This document shows, in pieces, positions 58,948 through 60,681 of a DNA stretch of 64,000 nt. The stretch comes from Agathobacter sp. (lineage in GTDB: Bacteria; Bacillota; Clostridia; Lachnospirales; Lachnospiraceae). The notes beneath the pieces were generated by a model, which saw nothing but the letters and a program-made list of their open reading frames with translations, did not search any database and was not told the origin of the DNA. Location of the stretch: positions 1-64,000 of the forward strand of contig JALEZW010000060.1 in assembly GCA_022772675.1 (NCBI GenBank), written 5' to 3'. The position numbers and the translations under genes are program-made. How positions within the stretch are numbered: position 1 is the first letter of the stretch; the number at the start of each line of letters is the position of its first letter.

Positions 58948-59196
58948 ATATTACCTGTATCAGATTTAAGAAATTATAATGAAGTGTTGAAAAATTGCCA
59001 GGTTGGAGAACCCGTGTTTTTGACGAAAAATGGCAGAGGCAAGTTTGTGGTTATGGATATTGAGGACTATGAGCGTGAAAAGACTGAGAAAAAGCTGTTG
59101 ATGAAGCTACAGGAAGCAGAAGAAGCAGTTAAGGATGAAAGCGCCTGGATGAGTTTAGATGAACTGAAGAAATCTGTCGGGGTATTGGACTGGTAA
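58948..59196 (+). pseudogene. Phd/YefM-type antitoxin remnant
   Basis: The reading frame gives ILPVSDLRNYNEVLKNC, then VGEPVFLTKNGRGKFVVM, the normal Phd/YefM N-terminus, and runs on to a C-terminal toxin-binding-like tail. The usual initiating Met is missing: an in-frame stop lies two codons before the first Ile. A GTG at 58984 is the first possible start but has no ribosome binding site and would lose half of the DNA-binding fold. No intact toxin follows. Confidence 0.6.
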
Positions 59197-59655: not shown

Positions 59656-59785
59656 AGCATAGGAAGGGATTGCAGTCTCCCTGTTGTATTGTTTCATTTG
59701 GCGTTAAGAAAAATACTGCTTTTGGAGGACAGAATTTGTATTGGATGGTAAAATATAAAATTGTCTCCTAATTGTTTATCAAGGA

Positions 59786-60016
59786 GTAACTATTCAAAGC
59801 CCCTCCCCATGCATTCGCAAAAACGCACGACAAGTCGTGCTTTCTATGTAATAAGGAGGGACCCGTTCTGCGGGAAGATTCCTTATTACCTACCCTTTTT
59901 GCTCATACATGGGGAGGTGGCTCTATTCGAGCCACCTTACGAATAAGATAAGTGGCTTCTTACATGCAAGCATGACGAATCTACTTATCTTATTCTAAGG
60001 GGTTCTGAATAGTTAC
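59786..60016. mobile_element. IS66-type miniature element, copy 1
   Basis: A 231-bp element with no transposase. The ends are GTAACTATTCAAAGCCCC and, inverted, GTAACTATTCAGAACCCC, starting with the GTAA of IS66 ends. It is bounded by perfect 8-bp duplications ATCAAGGA (59778-59785 and 60017-60024), the IS66 target size. The interior holds at least four hairpins: CCTCCCCATG/CATGGGGAGG (long range), GCACGA/TCGTGC, TAATAAGGA/TCCTTATTA and GAATAAGATAAGT/ACTTATCTTATTC. Confidence 0.88.
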
Positions 60017-60147
60017 ATCAAGGAATTAAAATCACCCATTGAATTTTGTGTCAATTCGTGGTAGAATCTTTTGAATTTAAAAGTAACAGTTCAGCCATAA
60101 CCTGTACTGTTGCTTTTAAAACTGAAAAAGAAAGGAATGAATCACGT

Positions 60148-60381
60148 ATGATGAACATTGGATCATTAGGGAAAATTATGAAAGCAAAGGAGGTATTCAC
60201 TGCGAACCATCCGAAATTTGTTGCTTTTCTGCAAGCAGTCTTTTCAAATGGTGTAGAAGAAGGAACTATCATTGAACTCACTGTCACAAAGCCGGGACAG
60301 GATCCGGTGACTACCAACATAAAAGTGCAGCAGTCAGATCTTGATATGATGGACAGTATCAGAGAACTGGCATCAAAATAA
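60148..60381 (+). CDS. Small hypothetical protein between two miniature elements
   Basis: A 77-aa protein (MMNIGSLGKIMKAKEVFTAN at its start) of mixed alpha/beta character, without membrane segments or cysteines. AAAGGA lies about 11 bp upstream of the ATG. A 15-bp-stem hairpin lies upstream at 60076-60120. I do not recognise the family. It could be a functional orphan or the remnant of a larger mobile region. Confidence 0.55.
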   Translation: MMNIGSLGKIMKAKEVFTANHPKFVAFLQAVFSNGVEEGTIIELTVTKPGQDPVTTNIKVQQSDLDMMDSIRELASK

Positions 60382-60447
60382 GCCTGCAGCTTTTGAACAA
60401 AGGGATAGGAAAGATAAAGGCTGCAAATATTCTTTTATTATTGGGAT

Positions 60448-60644
60448 GTAACTGTTCAGAACCCCCTCCCCTGACATTCGCATTTCCGCACTTAACAGTG
60501 CTTTCTCGTCCCTTACGGGACTAAAAATGCTCATATAGGGGGCGGTGACTCTATTCGAGCCACCTTACGAATAAGAGAATCAGCCTCTTACATGCAAGCA
60601 TGACGATTCTGATTCCCTTATTCTAAGGGGTTCTGAATAGTTAC
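60448..60644. mobile_element. IS66-type miniature element, copy 2
   Basis: A 197-bp relative of copy 1. The ends are GTAACTGTTCAGAACCCC and, inverted, GTAACTATTCAGAACCCC. Perfect 8-bp duplications ATTGGGAT flank it (60440-60447 and 60645-60652). The segment from the TCTATTCGAGCCACC hairpin to CTTACATGCAAGCATGACGA is almost identical to copy 1, while other stems differ in sequence but still pair (GCACT/AGTGC, GTCCC/GGGAC, GAATCAG/CTGATTC). Confidence 0.88.
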
Positions 60645-60681
60645 ATTGGGATTATATAATCCCCAGGCATGAAAAATATGT

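Follow-up and report, generated by a model that had tools for sequence, protein, structure and literature searches.

What kind of sequence preserves the pairing of its helices while the letters of these helices diverge? The question is raised by two short stretches in the window, that is, the whole stretch of 64,000 nucleotides of Agathobacter sp. DNA analysed here. The first-pass annotation described them as two miniature elements whose helices differ but keep pairing, and suggested a selected RNA structure, perhaps an undescribed mobile ncRNA. The letters quoted for the helices are all present: GCACGA/TCGTGC in copy 1 versus GCACT/AGTGC in copy 2, ATAAGT/ACTTAT versus GAATCAG/CTGATTC, and, in the third hairpin, TAATAAGGA plus CCCG/CGGG versus GTCCC/GGGAC. 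The common stretches GCTCATA and CTTACATGCAAGCATGACGA are also present in both copies. We assign a probability of about three in four to the explanation that the two stretches are MITEs with a structured RNA interior read from the minus strand, and that this interior is a relative of the Rfam family Clostridiales-1.

Two complete copies of a miniature transposon

The two stretches represent a single non-autonomous transposon (MITE), present here in two complete copies. Copy 1 occupies positions 59786..60016 (231 bp), and copy 2, positions 60448..60644 (197 bp); in both, the ends are GTAAC...GTTAC, and the predicted RNA corresponds to the minus strand. Copy 1 is flanked by the target duplication ATCAAGGA (59778..59785 and 60017..60024), and copy 2, by ATTGGGAT (60440..60447 and 60645..60652). 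The two miniature elements are thus real, but their initial extents had to be corrected to these boundaries, as defined by the inverted repeats and the 8-bp duplications. A 61-aa frame (59761-59946) is the sole ORF of at least 60 aa that overlaps a window copy.

The terminal inverted repeat of copy 1 (59786..59804, partner 59998-60016), identified in the inverted-repeat listing and in the fold, is also the closing helix P1 of the predicted RNA, and hence the RNA and the transposon would share their ends. The interior, read on the minus strand, is predicted to form hairpins P2 and P3 and a domain P4 enclosing P5 and P6. The long hairpin P2 spans 59941..59995 in copy 1, with the tip at 59959-59977 (inverted repeat, 19-mer search and fold), and 60569..60623 in copy 2, with the tip at 60587-60605 (sequence, 19-mer search and fold). 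P3 is located at 59916..59936 and 60544..60564, respectively, being supported in both cases by the sequence, an inverted repeat and the fold; in copy 2 it contains a minus-strand G.U pair. The P4 domain, seen in the fold and the alignment, covers 59805..59914 in copy 1, where it has the GAGC/GCGA step, and 60468..60542 in copy 2. The variable hairpin P5 (sequence and fold) has a long form in copy 1 (59848..59889) and is reduced to GTCCC/GGGAC in copy 2 (60508..60521). P6, identified from the sequence, is the GCACGA/TCGTGC hairpin of copy 1 (59825..59840) and the GCACT/AGTGC hairpin of copy 2 (60488..60501). The fold z-score is about -12 for each copy relative to mononucleotide shuffles. Model R1, whose building sequences include both copies, matches copy 1 at 160.1 bits (59804-59998) and copy 2 at 165.9 bits (60467-60626), in both cases on the minus strand. 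The 19-mer and the 24-mer (at most three mismatches) have two occurrences each in the window, the mean over 100 shuffles being 0.00.

Several other features lie nearby. A drum RNA (RF02958, 59206-59309, 44.6 bits with the cut-off of 43) is situated immediately to the left of copy 1, and an ORF resembling Phd/YefM-type antitoxins is found at 58984-59193 (PF02604, 35.5 bits). Between the copies, a 31-bp stretch (60083-60113) reads GTAACAGTTCAGCC...CTGTACTGTTGC and has the flanks ATTTAAAA and TTTTAAAA that match, by eye, at seven of eight positions; it appears to be an element of the GTAACAGTTCAGCC subfamily that deletion has reduced to this very small size.

The genome containing the window (2.8 Mb in 73 contigs) yields 30 matches to copy 2. 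Eleven near-full copies, both window copies included, form the rows of alignment A1, and there are many fragments besides. Ten of the elements in this genome could be bounded by script and are 130–231 bp long; the near-full copies L010 and L012, whose right ends are damaged, are outside these ten. Exact 8-bp duplications flank eight of the ten, and the remaining two have one and two mismatches. In the set of 91 elements from the genus, ends were assigned by a score that counts the duplication and hence favours matches; recognisable ends were found in 67 elements, 26 of them with exact duplications, compared to the mean of 0.43 and the maximum of 3 in the control with swapped flanks. Terminal inverted repeats, duplications of a fixed length, small size, multiple copies and the lack of an internal transposase gene are together the features of a MITE. 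Four derivatives of 59–86 bp retain the same ends and have lost most of the interior, and their duplications have at most one mismatch; they represent three independent sites, as two of them share one site in two genomes. Since these derivatives still duplicate the target, the ends seem to be sufficient for movement, which thus proceeds without most of the RNA. Mobility, proposed in the annotation, is borne out by the inverted repeats, the target duplications and the copy number, and we consider it practically certain that the family is a mobile element.

Some contigs of the same genome begin or end inside elements or inside copies of RF01699 (e.g. C20:5-123, C69:5-123, C36:25-193), and so the number of copies found is probably too low. 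The small ORF between the two window copies, searched for in 62 genomes, has a match in 44. In seven inspected neighbourhoods of this ORF no element is visible, but the gene order there differs, and hence none of them is a clean empty site.

As MITEs, the elements would be moved in trans by a transposase recognising GTAAC(T/A)(A/G)TTCA-like ends and producing 8-bp duplications. No autonomous partner was recognised when 20 stretches around GTAACTATTCAGAACC sites, found in 14 of the 62 genomes, were scanned for ends. These stretches, mostly outside R1 hits, contained short deletion derivatives and single ends, and the frames from three of them appeared chromosomal by eye. Members of the IS66 family create 8-bp duplications and have ends starting with GTAA, and our elements share both features. 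Four IS66 pairs were compared, and one end was readable in each of two IS66 elements of the genus. Both ends start with GTAA, but differ further on (GTAAGCG... and GTAAACGC...), neither carrying the GTAACTATTCA of our elements. None of 30 IS66 loci had GTA...TAC ends together with a duplication. As the agreement with the ends that could be read is limited to GTAA and the duplication length, IS66 was set aside as the partner.

Pairing in the interior and the probable strand of the RNA

Eleven copies from the same genome, aligned by sequence, cover 56 pairs of the named structure. Pairing is retained in 97.4% of cases, and 12 pairs vary on both sides. Four covariation measures exceed all 500 shuffles and the fifth exceeds 498 of 500, while sliding destroys the signal. 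A broader set of 51 elements from nine genomes was selected from the 91 by the quality of ends, length and absence of N, with identical sequences removed; due to an accident of naming it omits most loci numbered L130-L139. Here the 53 pairs are retained in 93.7% of cells, and in 35 of the pairs both sides vary; each of the five measures is above 500 of 500 shuffles. The weakest helix is P6, with 77.4% paired, because some subfamilies have a different hairpin at this place. Thus the claim that the helices diverge and yet keep pairing holds in both alignments. A stricter null model, in which the tree and the branch-wise substitutions are retained, yields three pairs with E <0.05 among all column pairs, two of them inside the 64-pair structure; with only 570 inferred substitutions, the power of this model for single pairs is low. 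Since the elements are kin, all p-values given here and below are optimistic.

The most constant part is the tip of P2, which reads CGU-CAUG-CUUG-CAUG-UAAG on the minus strand (CTTACATGCAAGCATGACG). We scanned one genome per species for this 19-mer and used 109 of at least 112 matching stretches as loci; the 111 occurrences in these gave 98 distinct loci with both arms. The scan fixes the tip by design and leaves the pairing of the arms free. Among the matches listed, 96 of the 98 distinct loci have at least nine Watson–Crick pairs in the first 14 positions, with the mean of 11.7 pairs in the best of 16 registers, whereas after swapping the arms between loci only 10.8 of 98, on average, are complementary. 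P2 is thus best described as a long hairpin in which a fixed tip would be carried by a freely covarying stem.

The conserved stretches had been taken for fixed single-stranded parts. In detail this did not hold: CTTACATGCAAGCATGACG forms the tip of P2, and GCTCATA (UAUGAGC on the minus strand) lies within a helix, where in the predicted folds it likely adjoins a tandem G.A step. A strict pattern for the non-Watson–Crick step GAGC/GCGA matches 45 of the 51 elements.

The annotation had quoted the helices in plus-strand letters; the minus strand is the more probable RNA strand, judging by stability and isolated mismatches. The strand corresponding to the minus strand of the window (below, the sense strand) is predicted to be the more stable one in 61 of 64 elements that remained of the 91 after filtering. 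Among the matches listed, the same holds for 74 of the 98 hairpins selected solely by the 19-mer and for 70 of 89 longer stretches; when the constant contribution of the tip is subtracted, the sense strand is favoured in 61 of the 98 versus 29 for the opposite one. In RF01699 matches, the same strand is more stable in 16 of 18 cases drawn from 20 loci. All these counts include related copies. In copy 1 itself the strands are nearly equal (-112.7 and -110.2).

If selection acts on RNA, the transcribed strand is expected to retain G.U while A.C is removed. Isolated mismatches, having two flanking pairs on each side, comprise 44 G.U and 21 A.C on the minus strand (p 0.006 by cells), or 32 versus 17 when counted by hairpin (p 0.04). 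In the scan-only set, among the matches listed, the numbers are 34 and 19 (p 0.05), and 25 and 15 by hairpin (p 0.15). The gapped tally of P2 shows no strand bias (G.U 76, A.C 83). In the cell tally of the 51 elements, G.U exceeds A.C in P2–P5, much of the excess coming from a few shared columns, and A.C exceeds G.U in the terminal repeats and P6. One pair in P4 is U.G in 38 elements, U-A in eight and C-G in five; one pair in P3 is G.U in 31, G-C in 15, A-U in two and something else in three.

The suggestion of a selected RNA structure is supported by the covariation and the strand asymmetry, but weakened by the tree-preserving null, with its 2 of 64 pairs, and by the unbiased gapped tally. 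From the covariation combined with the strand asymmetry, we infer RNA-level selection on the fold; such selection on the minus strand appears likely.

Distribution and insertion sites

Model R1 has matches in 32 of 62 genomes of the genus (E 0.001), in 48 of 299 genomes of the family (1e-6) and in two of 196 genomes of the class, namely, the genome of the window and one more from the same family. One R1 match (L236) is in Blautia caecimuris DSM 29492. Among the matches listed, the 19-mer loci (at least 109) include 84 named Lachnospiraceae; one scan of viral_contigs gave no exact match to the 19-mer. Across the Lachnospiraceae there is a more numerous group of relatives that score under the Rfam thresholds or fall outside them.

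To describe the sites of insertion, we counted gene starts with a ribosome-binding site within 75 nt of the element in 65 of the 91 genus elements that passed the filters. Such starts are found in sense at 26 elements and in antisense at seven (p 0.0013). Elements with at most one mismatch in the duplication yield 11 versus 4 (p 0.12, not significant), and the remaining ones, 15 versus 3 (p 0.008). A cruder count over all 91 elements gives 36 sense versus 20 antisense, and family-wide, 67 named loci have 29 tandem sense and 16 tandem antisense neighbours (p 0.07). The genus copies thus show an excess of sense-oriented positions immediately before gene starts, where they would become 5' leaders. 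Retention in sense leaders fits this bias better than strict targeting does. Whether the elements have a role as leaders is a more doubtful matter; we regard it as possible, but somewhat short of an even chance.

Strong -10-like hexamers within 15 nt occur on the sense side of 22 and on the other side of eight of 67 elements. A target rule by which the elements would insert directly after a -10 box, suggested by eye, is not claimed here, as the mean best scores are close to those of shuffles. Near the copies, seven promoter-like sites were found with 4.0 expected (s.d. 2.5), which is about the chance level. The sole minus-strand promoter-like site at a window copy (60021-59992) extends across the start of copy 1, with no counterpart at copy 2; a minus-strand promoter suspected by eye before copy 1 is missing from the hits of the promoter scan and was dismissed. 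One copy in the same genome, L003 (1388-1472), lies behind a ZTP riboswitch, and a copy from another genome, L107, precedes what by eye appears to be the same gene, with different flanks.

Clostridiales-1, rival explanations and comparable systems

The Rfam search of the window assigned no family at its cut-off to either element, the drum RNA being the only hit. Hits to mir-1255 and other miRNA families were discarded as chance-like, as they are below the cut-offs and mir-1255 matches both strands of one hairpin. The closest known family is Clostridiales-1 (RF01699), and the elements are below its gathering cut-off of 48 bits. Copy 2 scores 24.0 bits, and copy 1 gives nothing at E 10. Of ten other loci in the same genome, seven match over the full length on the predicted strand with 26.4–38.2 bits, and three give nothing at E 1; overall, eight of 12 copies score 24–38 bits and four have no listed match. 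The two families are linked by the locus G010:C18, with 40.6 bits for RF01699 (E 1.8e-7) and 92.8 bits for R1. Further, the exact 19-nt tip occurs on the same strand inside five RF01699 matches scoring 63.5–128.8 bits (three in L164, one each in L170 and L205). The linking locus and the identical tip in these three loci make common descent of our elements and Clostridiales-1 very likely. In L168, RF01699 matches are present and none of them covers the 19-mer.

The two families have the same strand and order of parts, a closing helix, a long hairpin with the CUUG tip and, by eye, the P4 core AUGAG..A / ..CGAAU. They differ in the terminal repeats, in the length of the duplications (8 bp versus 7 bp) and in the additional hairpin P3, while the final hairpin of RF01699 seems, by eye, to be absent from our elements. 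Thus the elements are undescribed in the sense that no Rfam cut-off is reached in the window, but they have a described relative.

RF01699 has 42 matches in the genome of the window (E 0.01); a search of 31 genomes, all of this genus, found it in 12. Forty loci, some of which are duplicates, were scanned for ends by patterns chosen after viewing the sequences, and 11 rows corresponding to ten elements could be bounded. Exact 7-bp duplications are present in four (L049, L308, L310, L311) and adjoin GATAC/GATAT ends. Hence genuine RF01699 copies look mobile as well. In a published table (PMC2864571; Genome Biol 2010 R31) the family is a candidate RNA listed for Clostridiales and human gut; the main text of that source lacks the word "mobile", and "transpos" and "repetitive" each occur once, with reference to other motifs. 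In the literature searched, mostly papers outside subscription, no report of RF01699 mobility was found, nor any paper linking miniature inverted-repeat elements and noncoding RNA in Lachnospiraceae. A family published in 2010, which Rfam types as a small RNA gene, thus appears to be the interior of mobile elements.

The same tip is found in other contexts. It occurs on unrelated paired stems in elements that start with GTTACTATTCACAG-like or GTAACTATTCAGCC-like sequences (e.g. L218, L255, L174, L167, L196). Among the matches listed, 16 tip loci have a GCAATGAGC(A/C)GTGC-like start, and in ten of these, by eye, a TATAAT-like box directly precedes the start (L171, L182, L197, L211, L225, L226, L246, L251, L252, L258, with GCAATGAGC(A/C)GTGC or similar). 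Pseudalkalibacillus caeni, from another order, has two long hairpins with the identical tip, L203 (7639-7657) and L259, with different stems and similar flanks. In the ten boxed loci and in L206, L186, L203 and L259, no Rfam match that covers the tip exceeds its cut-off. Related, non-identical tips in elements with GTTACTATTCACAG or GTAACAGTTCAGCC ends are accompanied by exact 8-bp duplications (L108, L109, L145, L147, L154, L155). Tentatively, and with more doubt than belief, one may suppose that a single RNA module, the fixed tip CGUCAUGCUUGCAUGUAAG on a free-running stem, rides several types of ends of mobile or repeated elements: GTAAC with 8-bp duplications, GATAC/GATAT with 7-bp duplications (Clostridiales-1), the GCAATGAGC(A/C)GTGC-like type and that of P. 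caeni, the last two being candidates for mobility. The persisting unit would then be the RNA, moving between transposons, and it would survive because its fold turns it into a 5' leader that is bound by a host factor and is either harmless or useful.

The terminal repeats, the target duplications and the continued movement of short derivatives would also be expected of a MITE without any RNA function, in which the hairpins are kept by the chemistry of transposition or by palindrome correction in replication. Palindrome correction can produce compensatory changes without selection, and the gapped P2 tally without G.U bias agrees with such an origin. However, it leaves aside the strand asymmetry in stability and isolated mismatches and the order of the architecture, which is the same in RF01699; moreover, palindrome correction should erase a step like GAGC/GCGA, retained in 45 of 51 elements. 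We therefore consider a purely DNA-level explanation unlikely.

If, on the contrary, the RNA were everything and the elements were ordinary stationary members of Clostridiales-1, the full-length sub-threshold matches on the right strand and the common tip and P4 core would follow directly. It is highly improbable, as the scores are 24–38 bits in eight of 12 copies, with no match in four, against the cut-off of 48; P3, the ends and the duplication lengths differ; and the target duplications show that this is not a stationary gene, RF01699 copies themselves looking mobile. The leader bias would also fit a riboswitch-like regulatory RNA of the host duplicated together with its genes, which we can hardly credit, since the 8-bp duplications vary from site to site and mark independent sites, copy 2 is located between convergent genes, and L003 lies behind a ZTP riboswitch.

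Returning to the MITE with an RNA interior, the RNA would most likely be transcribed from host promoters. One may speculate that in the sense orientation the fold compacts the insert and leaves the ribosome-binding site free, making insertions in leaders tolerable, and that the fixed tip of P2 binds a host factor. The many insertions with fresh duplications are natural replicates that could reveal the effect of a selfish structured RNA on host transcripts and bear on why the tip of the hairpin stays while the stem changes freely.

Two known systems are similar by description. QMITE1 and QMITE2 of Coxiella burnetii are MITEs giving rise to small RNAs, with the transcript predicted to fold; QMITE2 has 7–9 bp duplications and terminal repeats of 23–29 bp, and the accessible part of the source describes neither compensatory evolution nor an RNA core common to several families (PMC10969869). 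The bcr1 repeats of the Bacillus cereus group are tabulated as a family of short repeats whose predicted structure is conserved and, by the title of a work cited in the same source, have characteristics of mobile elements (PMC2267715). They resemble our elements in these respects and occur in different hosts.
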